Below are positions 42,162 through 47,192 of a stretch of DNA of 64,000 nt, one piece after another. Below the pieces are notes generated by a model. That model did no database searches. It was not told the DNA's origin and saw nothing but the letters and a program-made list of their open reading frames with translations. The stretch is from Deltaproteobacteria bacterium (GTDB taxonomy: Bacteria; Desulfobacterota; Binatia; Binatales; Binataceae), in the NCBI GenBank assembly GCA_021831785.1, contig JAKBMB010000016.1:186001-250000 (forward strand), written 5' to 3'. Numbering within the stretch: the first letter of the stretch is position 1; every line of letters starts with the position of its first letter. A program made the position numbers and the translations under genes.

Positions 42162-42190
42162 TTGACATAGCAAGCTTGCTCGGCTAGAGA
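42162..42190 (+). promoter_or_regulatory. Sigma-70-like promoter of the SAM riboswitch operon
   Basis: A perfect -35 hexamer TTGACA at 42162-42167 is followed after exactly 17 bases by TAGAGA at 42185-42190. Transcription would start near 42197, just ahead of the riboswitch aptamer. Confidence 0.65.
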
Positions 42191-42214
42191 GATAGGCAAG
42201 GCGTCGAAATCGCC

Positions 42215-42333
42215 CCTTATCCAGAGCGGTGGAGGGCCAGGCCCGAAGAAACCGCAGCAACCGGCCCGCAACGGGTGCTGGTGCTAATTCCGACGGAACG
42301 CTTAGCGAAAAACAAGCGCTCCGGAAGATAAGG
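42215..42333 (+). ncRNA. SAM-I (S-box) riboswitch
   Basis: The leader matches the S-box aptamer. P1 is CCTTATC (42215-42221) pairing with GATAAGG (42327-42333). Next come CAGAGCGGTGGAGGG, the conserved GGCCCGAAGAAACCGCAGCAACC core with the kink-turn, GGTGCTAATTCC at the J3/4 region, and a P4 stem. It binds S-adenosylmethionine and should switch off downstream sulfur genes when SAM is plentiful. A second CCTTATC at 42354-42360 can compete for GATAAGG, which suggests how the expression platform switches. The first gene starts 110 bases further on. Confidence 0.93.
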
Positions 42334-42443
42334 TGAGAGAAGCAAAACTCCCCCCTTATCAGCGGAATGAGCCGCCAACACCGGCTGTTCGACTTGCGAC
42401 CGCAGGGCTTATTCGACGCCGCGGCGGTTGAACCGGCTTCGCG

Positions 42444-43166
42444 ATGAAGAAAAAGGCGGTTTTGGTGGTCGGCGCGGGCGGTCTCGGCGTTCCGGCGATA
42501 GTCGCGCTCGGCGCCTGCGGCGAGTTCGCGCTGGGGCTCGTTGACCCGGAGCGGGTCGAGCTTTCTAATTTAGCGCGCCAGATAATCTACGGCAGCCGCC
42601 AACTAGGGGCATTCAAGGCCGAGGCCGCCGCTCGTTACCTCAGGGAGCGCTTGGAGTATCGCGACGTAGAGCCCATGAGCATCGCCCTTGACGCCTCGAA
42701 CGCGGCCGCGTTGGTGGCGCGCTACGACTTCGTAATCGACGCCACGGACGACCCGGCGGCGAAGTTCCTGATCAATGACGTGTGCTTGGCGGCGCAGCGC
42801 CCGTTTTGTTATGGAGGCGTGCTCGGTTTTCGCGGCCAAGCGATGACCGTCCTGGGGCGCAAAACGGCCTGCCTGAGATGCCTGTTTGAATTTCCACCCG
42901 AGGCGGGCGAGACCGCGAGCTGTCGGGATGCGGGAATAATCGGTTCGGTCGCGGGATTGATCGGATTTGTGCAGGCCAAGGAGGCAATCGCTTACCTGCG
43001 CGGAGGCAAGCCGCGGCTGGCCGGAAAACTGTTCGCTTACGACGCGAGGGGCCAGGCGAGCGTCAGAATTCTTGCCGTACGGCCGCGCGAGGATTGCGCT
43101 TGCGCCGGCGCGCGCCTGGGAGTCGGGCATACGGGCGTCGGCGCGCCGGCGGGAGCAATAAGGTAG
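42444..43166 (+). CDS. E1-like sulfur-carrier-activating enzyme (ThiF/MoeB/HesA family)
   Basis: A 240-residue adenylyltransferase. The ATP-binding loop is VVGAGGLGVPA near residue 8. VELSNLARQIIYG carries the arginine finger, VIDATDDPAAKFLIND the magnesium-binding Asp, and ETASCRDAGIIGSVAGLIG the conserved crossover/catalytic Cys region. Zinc cysteines are CLRC and CACAG. It lacks the first 20-30 residues (RYSRQ helix) common in MoeB. It should adenylate the C-terminal glycine of the MoaD-like carrier two genes downstream. It is the first gene after the SAM riboswitch, and thrC begins five bases after its stop. Confidence 0.87.
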   Translation: MKKKAVLVVGAGGLGVPAIVALGACGEFALGLVDPERVELSNLARQIIYGSRQLGAFKAEAAARYLRERLEYRDVEPMSIALDASNAAALVARYDFVIDATDDPAAKFLINDVCLAAQRPFCYGGVLGFRGQAMTVLGRKTACLRCLFEFPPEAGETASCRDAGIIGSVAGLIGFVQAKEAIAYLRGGKPRLAGKLFAYDARGQASVRILAVRPREDCACAGARLGVGHTGVGAPAGAIR

Positions 43167-43171
43167 GACGC

Positions 43172-44434
43172 ATGAGTTATGTCAGCGGGCTAAAATGCCG
43201 GGAGTGCGGCCGGGGGTACCCGGTCGAACCTCTGCACGTATGTGAGAACTGTTTCGGGCCGCTTGAAGTTGTCTATGACTACGCGCGAATCAAGGCCGCC
43301 GTGTCGCGCAGTCTGATTGAATCGCGGCCGCGCAATCTCTGGCGGTACAAGGAGCTGCTGCCGATTGAAACGGAGCCGCTCGCCGGGCCCAACTCGGGCT
43401 TCACGCCGCTGTTGCGCGCCGAACGGCTGGGCGCCGAGGTCGGGCTCAAGCAGCTCTACCTTAAGGACGATTCCGTCAACCATCCGACGCTTTCGTACAA
43501 GGACCGCGTGGTAGCGGTCGCCATCACCAAGGCGCGCGAGTTCGGTTTCACGACCGTATCGTGCGCTTCGACCGGCAACCTGGCCACCGCGGTGGCGGCG
43601 CATGCGGCGCGGGCGGGCCTCGAATGCTACATCTTCATGCCCGAAGGGGTCGAGGCCGGCAAGATCGTCGGCTCCGCGATTTACGGCGCCCACGTGATCA
43701 CGGTCAAGGGCAACTACGACGACGTTAACCGGCTGTGCAGCGAGATTGCCGACAAGTATGGCTGGGCCTTCGTCAATATCAATTTGCGGCCCTATTACAC
43801 CGAAGGCGCCAAGACCTTTGGCTTCGAGGTCGCCGAGCAGCTTAACTGGCGCCTGCCCCAGCATATCGTGGTGCCCACCGCCGGCGGTACGATCCTGCCC
43901 AAAGTGGCCAAGGCGTTTCGCGAGCTCAAGCAAGTGGGTCTGGTGCGCGACGGCGACTTCAAGATTCACTCGGCGCAAGCGGCGGGCTCGGCGCCGGTGA
44001 TTCACGCGCTGCACCGGGGCACCGATCTGATCGCGCCGGTCAAACCGAACACGATCGCCAAGTCGATCGCGATCGGCAATCCCGCCGACGGCTATTACGT
44101 GTTGCGCGCGGTGCGTGAGTCGGGCGGATGGGGCGAGTCGGCGACCGACGCCGAGATCATAGAGGCGATGAAGCTGCTTGCCAGAACCGAGGGCATCTTT
44201 GCTGAACCGGCCGGCGGCACCACGCTCGCCGTCACGCTTAAGCTCGTTAACCTAGGACACATCAAAAGCGACGAAAGCGTGGTGGTCTCGATTACGGGCA
44301 ACGGCTACAAGACGCTGGAAGCGGTGATGCATCAGGTGCAGACGCCGTTCGTGATTGAAGCGCGCCTCAAAGAGTTCGATGCGCTCTTTGAACGGCTCAA
44401 AGACGGCAAAGTGGCCGCGGCCGGAGCCGCGTGA
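43172..44434 (+). CDS. thrC: Threonine synthase family PLP enzyme with zinc ribbon
   Basis: A 420-residue fold-type II PLP enzyme. The N-terminus has a zinc ribbon (CRECGRGYPVEPLHVCENC). The PLP lysine is in HPTLSYKDRVVAVA near residue 106, the phosphate-binding turn in CASTGNLATAVAAHAA, and the cofactor loop in VVPTAGGTILPKVAKAF. The ATG at 43172 has AGGTAGG ahead of it; the longer open frame would overlap the E1 gene. The family converts O-phosphohomoserine to threonine. Its position inside a SAM-riboswitch operon with a sulfur carrier raises the possibility that it, or a partner, uses phosphohomoserine for sulfur incorporation. That is inference. Confidence 0.88.
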   Translation: MSYVSGLKCRECGRGYPVEPLHVCENCFGPLEVVYDYARIKAAVSRSLIESRPRNLWRYKELLPIETEPLAGPNSGFTPLLRAERLGAEVGLKQLYLKDDSVNHPTLSYKDRVVAVAITKAREFGFTTVSCASTGNLATAVAAHAARAGLECYIFMPEGVEAGKIVGSAIYGAHVITVKGNYDDVNRLCSEIADKYGWAFVNINLRPYYTEGAKTFGFEVAEQLNWRLPQHIVVPTAGGTILPKVAKAFRELKQVGLVRDGDFKIHSAQAAGSAPVIHALHRGTDLIAPVKPNTIAKSIAIGNPADGYYVLRAVRESGGWGESATDAEIIEAMKLLARTEGIFAEPAGGTTLAVTLKLVNLGHIKSDESVVVSITGNGYKTLEAVMHQVQTPFVIEARLKEFDALFERLKDGKVAAAGAA

Positions 44435-44589
44435 GACCGGGTTTTTGTCGTTCGCGTTTTCGCGCCGTGCCGTAAGGTTTCGCCGCGCGCGCTTGACTCC
44501 GGGAACGGGGTTGCACGGCGCTGCAAGCGAACGATTGTCGGCGCCCGCGCCGGCGCAAAGAAGCAAGGGAAGTAATAAAATAAATGATG

Positions 44590-44640
44590 TATAATCGGGC
44601 GTCAGCGACGGATTGACCGTCGCCTTACGGGAGGCAGCAG
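44590..44640 (+). promoter_or_regulatory. Possible internal promoter and leader hairpin before the sulfur-carrier gene
   Basis: The 216-base gap after thrC contains a perfect TATAAT at 44590-44595 with no convincing -35, then a hairpin GCGACGG / CCGTCGC (44604-44622) and GGGAGG. It may be an internal promoter or an mRNA processing site for moaD-cysM. Confidence 0.35.
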
Positions 44641-44650
44641 GAAAAAGCAG

Positions 44651-44929
44651 ATGGCAGTGCAGATACGAGTTCCGACACCGCTTAGAAGATTTACCGGCGG
44701 CACCGACGTGGTATCGGCCAACGGCAGTTCGCTCAGAGAAGTGATCGACGACCTCGAACGCAGCCATCCCGGCCTGCGTGAGCGGCTGCTGGACGAAAAC
44801 GGCGAGCTGCGCCGCTTCGTCAATATTTTCATCAACGGCGACGACGTGCGGTTTCTCGACCAGCTCAGCTCCCAGGTAAAGGATGGCGACGACATCTCGA
44901 TCGTTCCCGCGATCGCCGGCGGCCGCTAG
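44651..44929 (+). CDS. MoaD/ThiS/CysO-like sulfur-carrier protein ending in Gly-Gly-Arg
   Basis: A 92-residue ubiquitin-fold protein: VQIRVPTPLRRFTGGTDVVS, LREVIDDLERSHPGLRERLL, GELRRFVNIFINGDDVRFLD and DGDDISIVPAIAGGR. It closely resembles mycobacterial CysO, the thiocarboxylate donor for CysM. Most such carriers end in Gly-Gly; this one has one extra Arg, so a peptidase must expose the glycine. Its 3' end overlaps the start of the CysM-like gene by 47 bases. Together with the E1-like enzyme it should form a sulfur relay. Confidence 0.9.
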   Translation: MAVQIRVPTPLRRFTGGTDVVSANGSSLREVIDDLERSHPGLRERLLDENGELRRFVNIFINGDDVRFLDQLSSQVKDGDDISIVPAIAGGR

Positions 44930-45932
44930 CCAACAGTTCCTGCCGACGGCGCGCGCAGAAAGCGTACTCGACCTGATCGGCAACACGCCGCTGCTCGAGA
45001 TCGCCAAGGTCACCCATGGCCTATTGCGCCCAAGCGTGCGCATCTTCGCCAAGCTGGAGGGCTTCAACCCGGGCGGCTCGGTCAAGGACCGCGCCGCGCG
45101 CAAGATGCTGCAAGTGGGGCTGGAAAGCGGGGCGCTTAAGCCCGGTAAGACGATTATCGATTCGACCTCGGGCAATACCGGCATCGCCCTGGCCATGCTG
45201 GGCGCCGTGCTCGGCTACCCCGTCGAGCTAGTAATGGCGGCCAACGCAAGCCGCGAGCGAAAGAAAATAGTCCGAGCCTTTGGCGCTAAAGTGACCTACT
45301 CAGACCCGCTCGAGGGCTCCGACGGCGCGATTTTGCTCTGCCGCGAGATTGTCGCCAAGGACCCGCAGCGCTATTTCAAACCCGATCAGTACAGCAACGA
45401 GGCCAACCCGCTGGCTCATTTCGAAACCACCGGCCCCGAGGTCTGGCGTCAGACCAACGGCGCCGTAACCCACCTGGTCGCCGGACTAGGCACCGGCGGC
45501 ACCGCGATGGGCGTCGGTCGTTACCTCAAGTCGCGCAACCCGAAGATACGGGTGATCGGGGTCGAGCCGGACGACCCGATGCACGGGCTGGAAGGACTCA
45601 AGCATATGGGCTCCTCGATCGTTCCGCCTATTTACCATGAAGAGGAGCTGGACGAAAAAATCTCGGTCAGCACCGAAGATGCCTATGAAATGGTCTACGC
45701 GCTCGGGCAAATCGAGGGCATCTTGGTCGGTCAATCCTCCGGAGCGGCCCTGATCGGCGCGTTAGCCGTCGCCCGCGAGCTGAAAGAAGGATGCGTAGTC
45801 GCGATCTTTCCGGATCTCGGTGAGAAGTATCTCTCGACCAACCTCTGGATCGGGTGGCAAAGCTGGAATCGCAGCCGCCTCACCCGACTGTTAGCTAAAT
45901 GCAGGAACGAGTCCGCGAACGCTACTACCTGA
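44883..45932 (+). CDS. cysM: Cysteine synthase, CysM/CBS family
   Basis: A 349-residue fold-type II PLP enzyme. ESVLDLIGNTPLLEI starts the domain, the PLP lysine is in FNPGGSVKDRAARKML near residue 63, the substrate loop STSGNTGIALAM near 95, GLGTGGTAMGVGRYLK near 200 and GQSSGAALIGAL near 280. The loop GSDGAILLC and the adjacent CysO-like carrier favour the protein-thiocarboxylate-using CysM type over sulfide-using CysK. The ATG at 44883 lies inside the carrier gene; about 25 N-terminal residues come from the overlap, and no later ATG exists before the domain. The stop overlaps the NIL gene. Confidence 0.88.
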   Translation: MATTSRSFPRSPAAASQQFLPTARAESVLDLIGNTPLLEIAKVTHGLLRPSVRIFAKLEGFNPGGSVKDRAARKMLQVGLESGALKPGKTIIDSTSGNTGIALAMLGAVLGYPVELVMAANASRERKKIVRAFGAKVTYSDPLEGSDGAILLCREIVAKDPQRYFKPDQYSNEANPLAHFETTGPEVWRQTNGAVTHLVAGLGTGGTAMGVGRYLKSRNPKIRVIGVEPDDPMHGLEGLKHMGSSIVPPIYHEEELDEKISVSTEDAYEMVYALGQIEGILVGQSSGAALIGALAVARELKEGCVVAIFPDLGEKYLSTNLWIGWQSWNRSRLTRLLAKCRNESANATT

Positions 45933-46147
45933 CCTATCCTAGCGCCCTGATAAGAGAGCCGATTCTCTATCGTTTGGTCAAAAAGTTCGACCTCGTCTTC
46001 AATATCCGAGGCGCCAGCGTCTCGGACGAGGTCGGGCTGGTAGCGGTGGAGTTCGAGGGGCCGGCGAGTCAGGTCGAGGCTGCGATCAAATGGCTGAGGC
46101 AGACCGGGGTCGCGGTCGAGCCGATCGAGAAGAACGTCATCGAATAG
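45899..46147 (+). CDS. NIL domain protein
   Basis: An 82-residue protein that is essentially one NIL domain: YYLTYPSALIREPILYRLVK, FDLVFNIRGASVSDEVGLVA and EAAIKWLRQTGVAVEPIEKN. NIL (ferredoxin-like fold) domains are found at the end of methionine ABC transporter ATPases and in homocysteine-forming proteins, where they sense or bind amino acids or sulfur intermediates. It starts at an ATG overlapping the cysM 3' end by 34 bases. Its presence supports a cysteine or methionine role for the operon. Confidence 0.88.
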   Translation: MQERVRERYYLTYPSALIREPILYRLVKKFDLVFNIRGASVSDEVGLVAVEFEGPASQVEAAIKWLRQTGVAVEPIEKNVIE

Positions 46148-46292
46148 GCGGTCGCGGCGCGGACGTACTAAGAACGCTGCGGCAGACGTCGCCTAGCTTC
46201 AACTGCGCCGGCCGGCGCGACTCGTTGCGCGCTTCGCCCGTGGCTTGAACCCCGGCGGCGCTTTCGCGGCCGCTCTTCTGCCCGCTTTTACG

Positions 46293-47192
46293 ATGCTCAG
46301 CGACGCTCAAATAGACCGCTACAGCCGTCAGATTGTGCTGCCCCAGATTGGTGGCCGCGGCCAGCAGCGCCTACTGCGCTCGCGGCTCGTTCTGATGAGC
46401 GGCTTGAGCGAACTTGAGCCGGCGCTGTCGTACCTGGTTGGCGCCGGCGTAGGCACGCTTGATATTCGTTCGACCGCGAGCGTCCAAGACCGGCGCCGGA
46501 TTGGCGTTCGGATGCGCGATCTCAATCCGGAGGCGCGGCTCATCTGGGGCGAAGAAGGGCGACGTGCGGGCCGCAAGGCGCAACGCGCGCCCGACGCACT
46601 GCTAGTCCTGGACGCAGGCGAGGCAGCGATTGGCCTTGAGAAGCCGGAGTTCAGTACGGCCGCCGAGCGCGAAGCTGCGCATCTGGAGCGCCTATTTGGC
46701 AGGATGAATCGGCAGGCCGCTCGGACCGCGCTGCAACTTGACAGCGCCGCGCGCCACCACGGCGGGATCGGCCGGCCAAGCGGCGTTATCCAGCGGCGGA
46801 TCGGCGGCGTCGAGCGGCAAAGCGTCACCGCCTTGCGGAAAAACAGCGCCCTCGGGAAGCAAAGCGACGGTATCGCGGCGCACAGCGTGCACGCACAATA
46901 CCTGCGGCTGGCGCCGGCACCGACGGTTGCGGCCCATCTGGCCGAACCGCTCGAATTAGTAGTGATTCCGTCGCGCCCGCCGTGCCTTGAATGCATCGGC
47001 GCTCGCTGCCTGGAGCCGGTTGGGCCGCGCGCCGGCGATTGGGAGCTGGTCGCGATGATGGCCGTCACCGAAGCTCTAAAGCTGCTGCTTGGAATCGGTC
47101 CTCCGTGCGCAAACGTGACGCGGATTTGCGGCTTAACCGTACAGCTTGCACGTCCGAAGCCGCGCGCAGGATGCCGCATTTGCGCTAGCTAG
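46293..47192 (+). CDS. Degenerate E1-like (ThiF/MoeB) protein without an ATP site
   Basis: A 299-residue protein. The beginning (LSDAQIDRYSRQIVLPQIGG) and end (AVTEALKLLLGIG, plus CLEC and CRIC zinc cysteines) are clearly ThiF/MoeB-like. The ATP-binding GxGGLG is replaced by LMSGLSELEP, the Asn-Leu-x-Arg-Gln finger is missing, and no catalytic Cys-x-x-x-Gly loop is seen. Residues 85-220 are rich in Arg/Ala/Gly and unlike the family. It is either a pseudoenzyme subunit or a decaying gene that still keeps its frame. The ATG at 46293 was chosen over an upstream TTG because it fits the family start. It lies 145 bases after the NIL gene. Confidence 0.65.
   Translation: MLSDAQIDRYSRQIVLPQIGGRGQQRLLRSRLVLMSGLSELEPALSYLVGAGVGTLDIRSTASVQDRRRIGVRMRDLNPEARLIWGEEGRRAGRKAQRAPDALLVLDAGEAAIGLEKPEFSTAAEREAAHLERLFGRMNRQAARTALQLDSAARHHGGIGRPSGVIQRRIGGVERQSVTALRKNSALGKQSDGIAAHSVHAQYLRLAPAPTVAAHLAEPLELVVIPSRPPCLECIGARCLEPVGPRAGDWELVAMMAVTEALKLLLGIGPPCANVTRICGLTVQLARPKPRAGCRICAS

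Follow-up and report, generated by a model that had tools for sequence, protein, structure and literature searches.

A SAM-riboswitch operon of Binatia encodes a putative split E1 enzyme and a candidate homocysteine synthase of the threonine synthase family

The operon described here occupies positions 42162 to 47192 of a 64-kb stretch of DNA (the window) from a Deltaproteobacteria bacterium of the class Binatia, whose assembly comprises 3.68 Mb in 34 contigs. Behind an S-adenosylmethionine (SAM) riboswitch, it encodes two E1-like proteins (E1a and E1b), a ThrC-family enzyme, a CysO/SAMP/MoaD-like sulfur carrier, a CysM-like cysteine synthase and a stand-alone NIL-domain protein, all on the forward strand. 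We consider it fairly probable that these genes constitute a SAM-repressed pathway for sulfur amino acids, in which a protein carrier served by a split E1 provides the sulfur for cysteine and for homocysteine made by the ThrC paralogue. The parts are of known kinds, namely thiocarboxylate cysteine synthesis, the HcyS-MetY route and the E1-like enzymes. An earlier note on this DNA had proposed a SAM-riboswitch operon of carrier, E1, ThrC-family enzyme, CysM and NIL, and the matches to RF00162 and to family profiles establish it as real and conserved. Looked for elsewhere, as the note had suggested, the gene set recurs in the same order in genomes of the class and in other arrangements in other phyla, and is thus not a chance assembly.

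The SAM-I (S-box) riboswitch aptamer (42214..42334) is full-length, matching positions 1-108 of the 108 in RF00162 with 80.5 bits (gathering score 44.4 bits; E 2.3e-17 over the window). It is the sole match in the window's genome under the stricter filters that were used for the many-genome searches. The motif CTTATC occurs twice, at 42216 and 42355, and an alternative hairpin (42327..42360) sets the second copy against GATAAG at 42327, the 3' strand of P1. In 28 of 32 related loci, a run of at least five Ts lies within 130 nt 3' of the aptamer. By eye, this run is mostly preceded by a GC-rich hairpin, the loop side of which often carries TTATC able to pair with the GATAAG of the aptamer. Together, hairpin and T-run give these relatives the look of a classic OFF switch.

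The ThrC-family pyridoxal phosphate (PLP) enzyme (43172..44434; PF00291; TIGR00260 284.7 bits, cut-off 167.1) is our candidate homocysteine synthase. NCBI models call the operon ThrC proteins threonine synthase. In a quick tree of 78 ThrC rows, 47 operon ThrCs from Binatota, Nitrospirota, Elusimicrobiota and one other bacterium form one group (98, starred), which includes the window; the class genomes' canonical ThrCs and the additional ThrC that three Nitrospirota operons carry both fall outside it. Long-row warnings make the positions of L227, L085 and L135 unsure. This distinct clade bears out the earlier note, which had called the protein a paralogue. The idea that the operon ThrC is its hosts' canonical ThrC was set aside on the same ground, and can still apply to the window's genome. 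For a count of diagnostic sites, 48 operon rows were compared with 25 of the canonical type, of which 22 come from the class and 3 from Nitrospirota, after the more distant L225-L228 and L135 had been dropped. The two sets differ at 27 positions that are at least 90% fixed within each. The Arg of VNSxNPxRIEGQKT, present in 25/25 canonical-type rows, is Tyr in 48/48 operon rows, and the operon motifs KDRGM and TGHGLKD stand against KDRVV and TGNGxKT in the canonical type. At least two TIGR00260 matches (E 1e-20 or better) occur in 38 of 40 class genomes with ThrC in the operon, the window's genome and G111 having one.

Two further ThrC arrangements were observed. In the Nitrospirota loci L095, L109 and L124, a second ThrC, of the canonical type, comes after the order E1-ThrC-MoaD-NIL, as though the branches to threonine and to homocysteine were maintained in parallel. 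In L225 (G012) and L226 (G032) and, by coordinates, in G013 and G006, a full-length gene of PF01053 (the MetB, MetC, MetY and MetZ family) adjoins a ThrC of a more distant type; the operon ThrC was not found in these four genomes, and the pair is possibly a phosphohomoserine-using cystathionine gamma-synthase pair.

The presence of the operon ThrC tracks the loss of classical homocysteine enzymes. We compared 51 class genomes with the operon read, 40 with ThrC and 11 without (L041, which has only E1b and lies close to the end of its contig, is not among them), at a threshold of E 1e-90 or better for MetX. MetX occurs in 2/40 ThrC-bearing versus 7/11 ThrC-less genomes, and a full-length PF01053 protein is lacking in 18/40 versus 0/11. 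The riboswitch is found in 35/40 versus 1/11 genomes, and NIL in 33/37 versus 0/11 (the cut loci L074, L076 and L232 being left out), nor does NIL occur in G032. Across the class, PF01053 matches better than 1e-40 are missing from 35 of 118 genomes, not counting G085, which has a fragment. Of these, 23 reach 90% completeness or more with no more than 5% contamination, and G072 is a single contig; none of the 35 has MetX, and all except G016, G052 and G110 (32 genomes) carry the riboswitch. HcyB (PF01837) was found in 0/118 class genomes, the window's included, and was rejected as the homocysteine enzyme.

A contig scan with E1a extended this comparison beyond the class. It returned at least 80 loci, mostly ordinary MoeB-like proteins, only some of which carry the cassette; at least 11 named loci outside the class combine ThrC and carrier. 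A full-length PF01053 protein is lacking in 9 of these 11 genomes, including 8/8 Nitrospirota, and HcyB in 10 of 11. The Helarchaeota genome has HcyB, which was not found in the eight ThrC-bearing named Nitrospirota genomes. Two further Nitrospirota loci show no ThrC; the genome of L120 lacks a full-length PF01053 protein and that of L156 has one. Two of these outside genomes, which are metagenome-assembled, measure only 1.0 and 1.2 Mb.

Several observations weigh against this interpretation, first of all in the window's own genome. The earlier note had suggested checking for a second thrC, and none was found: the operon ThrC is the sole one detected, so it may also, or only, make threonine; G071 likewise shows a single ThrC. 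The note had further suggested checking whether metY/metZ or cysK are lacking; across genomes, loss of the classical homocysteine enzymes goes with ThrC presence. In the window's genome, MetX is represented by a best match of 26.5 bits over 50 positions only, and one full-length PF01053 enzyme is retained (319 versus 495 for the MetY model). The models closest to this enzyme are those for methionine gamma-lyase and cystathionine gamma-synthase; among the best 25 of 42 models it stays below every cut-off, and it could be a cystathionine gamma-synthase or lyase. In the window's riboswitch, the terminator T-run is missing and the competing GATAAG/CTTATC hairpin is kept, so that its expression platform may be weaker or operate differently. 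The contrasts between genomes carry Fisher p-values of 0.005 to 6e-8 with relatedness ignored, and the metagenome-assembled genomes may be incomplete. Furthermore, four ThrC-less genomes are without MetX (G006, G013, G034 and G082), all with strong PF01053 matches, and MetX and the operon ThrC stand together in G049 and G051, with NIL found in neither locus. Two ThrC-less genomes, G076 and G032, have the riboswitch, in G032 with the E1-carrier-CysM core. NIL is missing in four ThrC-bearing loci, and in G072, which has no PF01053 match, it was not found in the 4.6 kb from CysM; NIL is therefore not strictly required.

These points leave room for a system that makes cysteine only, in the manner of CysO-CysM, with ThrC as an ordinary threonine synthase on a shared transcript and with homocysteine made otherwise or methionine imported. 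E1a, carrier, CysM and E1b do occur together in seven ThrC-less loci (L060, L065, L067, L071, L072, L077 and L078), and the window's ThrC, alone in its genome, scores above the threonine synthase cut-off. However, SAM repression of a threonine synthase would be backward, because the threonine and methionine branches would compete for phosphohomoserine; a SAM OFF switch would suit the methionine branch, not the threonine branch. The canonical ThrCs of the class fall in another clade, nearly all ThrC-bearing genomes have at least two TIGR00260 matches, the presence of ThrC goes along with that of NIL and the riboswitch and with the absence of MetX, and in many genomes no other known homocysteine enzyme was found. 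We regard a cysteine-only system as unlikely, while it remains the strongest competitor of the homocysteine route proposed here.

The E1 of the operon appears to be divided between its first and last genes. E1a (42444..43166; 240 aa; ThiF PF00899, 190.6 bits) keeps the complete ATP site and the zinc cysteines and misses the N-terminal arm. Its start lies close to the nucleotide-binding strand and is preceded by an in-frame stop at 42429-42431, which leaves no room for the N-terminal arm of MoeB-type enzymes. E1b (46293..47192; 299 aa), an inactive homologue, matches ThiF in its N-terminal part only, with 27.4 bits, just under 28.1. It keeps the arm, DRYSRQIVLP, at its start (DRYSRQIVLPQIGG) as well as four zinc-type cysteines; the GxGGxG, SNLxRQ and TD motifs are absent, as is the catalytic Lys. 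An in-frame TTG farther upstream (46245) is a possible alternative start. The fold predicted for E1b (mean predicted local distance difference test score, pLDDT, 78.8) most resembles those of ThiF, Uba4 and MoeB. About 80 residues before its CxxC (46600-46910) are extra relative to relatives, with pLDDT below 50 in parts, and a repeat search of this stretch found no repeats. In both chains Pfam identified the ThiF family only, with no catalytic-cysteine or ubiquitin-fold domain. The combination of arm Arg and ATP site in one chain that marks MoeB/ThiF homodimers is thus found in neither E1a nor E1b. The earlier note had described the last gene as a degenerate E1; the ATP site is indeed lost, and the gene is more than that, since the arm it keeps complements the first E1. 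A second E1 of the window's genome, L001 (G000:C20:3818-7534), is a rhodanese-MoeB fusion that is complete, arm and ATP site included, and adjoins peroxiredoxin-like and ThiC-like frames.

The same division runs through the relatives. A search with E1b gave a match in 116/118 class genomes. Forty class operon loci were fetched first (20 of family f1 and 20 of other families), mostly from the better E1b matches and hence biased toward genomes with E1b, and further loci were added later. The E1 proteins were aligned to the complete rhodanese-MoeB of the window's genome, from which the MoeB active-site residues were read off. Among 46 E1a/E1b pairs, which include the window and L099, 44 are complementary and, the window's among them, show the pattern of an asymmetric E1: an E1a with 8/8 ATP-site residues and no arm, and an inactive E1b with the arm and at most 4/8. 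The two others are L073 (G007), in which both genes are complete, and L064, in which E1a is cut by the contig end. Counted singly, the ATP-site residues are 8/8 in 45/46 E1a, the arm is absent in 45/46 E1a (one of these 45 being a fragment cut by a contig end), and the arm Tyr/Phe and Arg are present in 47/47 E1b. In six loci, belonging to families f2 and f12, a single E1 is present and complete, and the stretch read (which in G103 and G016 ends at NIL) shows no other. The E1s taken from other named phyla are complete in 20/20 cases.

Sequence divergence in E1b places its constraint in the arm: 45 E1b share a mean pairwise identity of 0.64 there versus 0.25 in the rest, compared with 0.61 and 0.58 in 26 complete E1s. 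In families f4, f10, f14 and f16, E1b is worn to frames of about 120-200 residues (stop to stop) with the arm still there. The ratio of nonsynonymous to synonymous substitution (dN/dS) is 0.13-0.59 in nine close pairs, one of them near saturation, and therefore indicates that E1b is under constraint, though looser than its neighbouring genes. A pseudogene was set aside given these values below 1 and the invariant arm. Profiles run against solved structures gave ThiF, MoeB and Uba4 as top matches for both proteins. Beyond these, the E1a profile found UBA3, SAE2 and, as the best stretch, the C-terminal halves of UBA1 and UBA7 (best 60 of 78 matches), and the E1b profile found UBA5, MccB, SAE1, APPBP1 and the N-terminal half of UBA7, with neither UBA3 nor SAE2 among its 33/33 matches. 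A quick E1 tree (55 rows, only 7 of them E1b) gave long-row warnings and places the fastest E1 rows unsurely. In it, the E1a of L099, a locus of Candidatus Binatota bacterium CO36406bin_18, lies close to class member G018; the best PF01053 hit of the L099 genome also agrees with that of G086 in contig number, coordinates and score, and on these two grounds we take the class to belong to Candidatus Binatota.

The arm Arg presumably corresponds to Arg14 of E. coli MoeB, which we take to reach into the neighbouring subunit. The accessible text of one review names Gly41, Arg73, Lys86 and Asp130 of MoeB and describes human UBA1 Arg57 and Arg515 at the leaving phosphate, an interaction present in MoeB as well (PMC12355090); judged from its number, Arg57 would belong to the inactive half. 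In the accessible text of two 2025 reviews, MoeB and ThiF are homodimers, with which one of them contrasts the eukaryotic E1s, where generally only one of the two halves is active (PMC12355090, PMC12687455). Each chain of the operon has lost what the other kept, and an obligate heterodimer is therefore to be expected; the simplest reading of the sequences is that E1a and E1b would form such an asymmetric pair through complementary decay of two E1 genes. This predicts an asymmetric bacterial E1 convergent with SAE1-SAE2. In the open-access literature, including the accessible text of PMC1779556, PMC1949818, PMC12355090 and PMC12687455, we found no description of an asymmetric bacterial E1; subscription papers lie outside this coverage.

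Conversely, E1b could be a regulator, a carrier-binding protein or a decaying copy, with E1a an armless homodimer or a partner of the complete rhodanese-MoeB. The existence of that enzyme in the window's genome offers E1a another partner and so counts against the heterodimer, as do the fast evolution of E1b outside the arm and the extra, partly poorly modelled stretch of the window's copy. Against such a role stand the arm itself, kept in every E1b and missing in nearly every E1a (the contig-end fragment counted), dN/dS below 1 in 9/9 pairs, and the four families in which E1b shrank around a retained arm. In addition, E1a adjoins E1b in G015, G023, G031 and G089 with no ThrC, carrier or CysM in the stretch read (the G089 contig ends just above E1a). 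We accordingly hold a role for E1b other than that of an E1 subunit to be improbable.

The remaining genes are consistent with transfer of sulfur on a carrier. The carrier (44651..44929; PF02597; SAMP1 NF041918 67 bits, cut-off 60) ends in ...AIAGGR, with one Arg after Gly-Gly; 6/35 relatives end exactly at Gly-Gly, and the others are 1 to 12 residues longer. Among solved structures it is closest to 4n6e_B and to the mycobacterial 3dwg_C, which we take to be CysO. A Prok-JAB protein is encoded in 108/118 class genomes, in the window's genome on another contig. The CysM-like enzyme (44883..45932, start codon uncertain) scores 365.4 bits with TIGR01138, below the cut-off of 394.2, and is closer to O-acetylserine sulfhydrylases than to mycobacterial CysM. 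The NIL protein (45899..46147; 82 aa; PF09383 55.2 bits, cut-off 24) stands beside ThrC in relatives and beside ThrC and carrier in Nitrospirota, and was present in the follow-up regions of G103 and G084. In L116 (6324-6848), carrier and NIL are fused in one frame with Gly-Gly between them, and this fusion would need cutting, by analogy with a ubiquitin fusion. A NIL/ferredoxin protein is required for homocysteine synthesis in the HcyB pathway, according to the accessible text of Price et al. 2018 (PMC5764234).

The layout of the operon and its conservation, the complementary losses in the two E1s, the ThrC clade and the co-occurrence patterns were read from sequence, and from them we infer the heterodimer, the thiocarboxylate, the substrates and products and the direction of control. 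We postulate that E1a holds ATP and the carrier C-terminus in an asymmetric E1, while the inactive E1b would extend its arm, with the conserved Arg, into the E1a active site. The carrier would be cut back to Gly-Gly, probably by the JAMM protease of the genome, and the trimmed carrier would be adenylated and converted to a C-terminal thiocarboxylate. CysM may take the thiocarboxylate sulfur to form cysteine, as in the CysO-CysM route. The ThrC paralogue would remove the phosphate of O-phosphohomoserine, like threonine synthase, and accept the carrier sulfur in place of water to give homocysteine. NIL could be a helper or a methionine sensor, and high SAM would close the riboswitch and turn the operon off. 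A variant in which ThrC and carrier make homocysteine from acetyl- or succinyl-homoserine, or in which CysM is the homocysteine enzyme, seems the most doubtful of the alternatives: the Arg-to-Tyr change in all operon ThrCs means that phosphate recognition may differ, but phosphohomoserine is the substrate of threonine synthases, no MetX was found in 38/40 ThrC-bearing genomes (MetA was not searched for), and CysM is also present in the ThrC-less loci of three MetX-bearing genomes (G018, G026 and G076).

Within the operon, the carrier and CysM genes overlap by 47 nt and those of CysM and NIL by 34 nt; the intergenic gaps measure 5 nt (E1a-ThrC), 216 nt (ThrC-carrier) and 145 nt (NIL-E1b). The promoter TTGACA-17 nt-TAGAGA claimed in the earlier note is present (42162..42190), with a weak second hexamer; the promoter scan of the window, in which position 6 of that hexamer must be T, passed it over, and it was rejected as strong promoter evidence. 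A TATAAT inside the 216-nt gap upstream of the carrier gene (44590..44595) is a possible second promoter and was likewise unlisted by the scan. In L232 (G084), about 2.9 kb of other sequence lies between ThrC and the carrier gene, within the operon. By eye, L007 (G000:C29:159607-163509) holds one open frame of more than 800 aa, an apparent two-domain fusion of an adenylosuccinate-lyase-type protein and a PLP domain of the D-cysteine desulfhydrase/1-aminocyclopropane-1-carboxylate deaminase type. The gene set as a whole was not found described in the open-access literature, including the accessible text of PMC1779556, PMC1949818, PMC12355090 and PMC12687455, a coverage that excludes subscription papers.

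A broader interpretation, to which we give an even chance, holds that Binatota evolved an obligately asymmetric E1 heterodimer independently of eukaryotes, that homocysteine synthesis by the ThrC family is a third carrier route, and that this is the missing pathway of Nitrospira. Two E1 copies would have decayed in complementary fashion, leaving at the extreme an E1b that does hardly more than supply the arm, and the same route would run with complete E1s in Nitrospira and others lacking MetB, MetC, MetY, MetZ and HcyB. If true, a bacterial E1 made the eukaryote-like split into active and inactive halves on its own, a step testable in small proteins, and its complete, doubled and split forms are still seen among relatives. 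The operon would likewise be a concrete candidate for the homocysteine route where no other known one was found, Nitrospira included.

The proposed pathway resembles several characterized systems and departs from each. The HcyS-HcyF-HcyD-MetY system of Wolinella is a protein-thiocarboxylate methionine pathway, and carrier-based homocysteine is likewise the proposed output of the window operon; unlike in Wolinella, no MetY- or MetX-type enzyme was found, and a threonine-synthase-family enzyme stands in that place. As in SAE1-SAE2 and APPBP1-UBA3, the two E1 chains resemble catalytic (E1a, best 60 of 78 matches) and regulatory (E1b, 33/33) subunits. In contrast to these, the pair is bacterial and small (E1a about 240 aa, E1b mostly 200-300 aa), and neither catalytic-cysteine nor ubiquitin-fold domains were found in it; its relatives include complete as well as intermediate forms, which argue for an origin separate from the eukaryotic E1s. 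With CysO-CysM-Mec+, the system of protein-thiocarboxylate cysteine synthesis in Mycobacterium (PMC3227635, accessible text), it shares a carrier, a CysM-family enzyme, E1-like activation and a JAB/JAMM-type protease in the genome; the window operon adds ThrC and NIL under a SAM riboswitch, and its E1, which carries no rhodanese domain, is divided between two chains. The pathway of HcyB (DUF39) and a NIL/ferredoxin protein likewise links NIL to homocysteine synthesis in the accessible text of PMC5764234, whereas HcyB was not found in the class and the window's NIL stands alone, without ferredoxin. Finally, the ThiS/MoaD, E1, JAB and cysteine synthase operons of PMC1779556 (row 4c) bring carrier, E1 and cysteine synthase together as here; as given in the accessible text, they are without the ThrC, NIL, riboswitch and paired E1s that mark the operon of the window.

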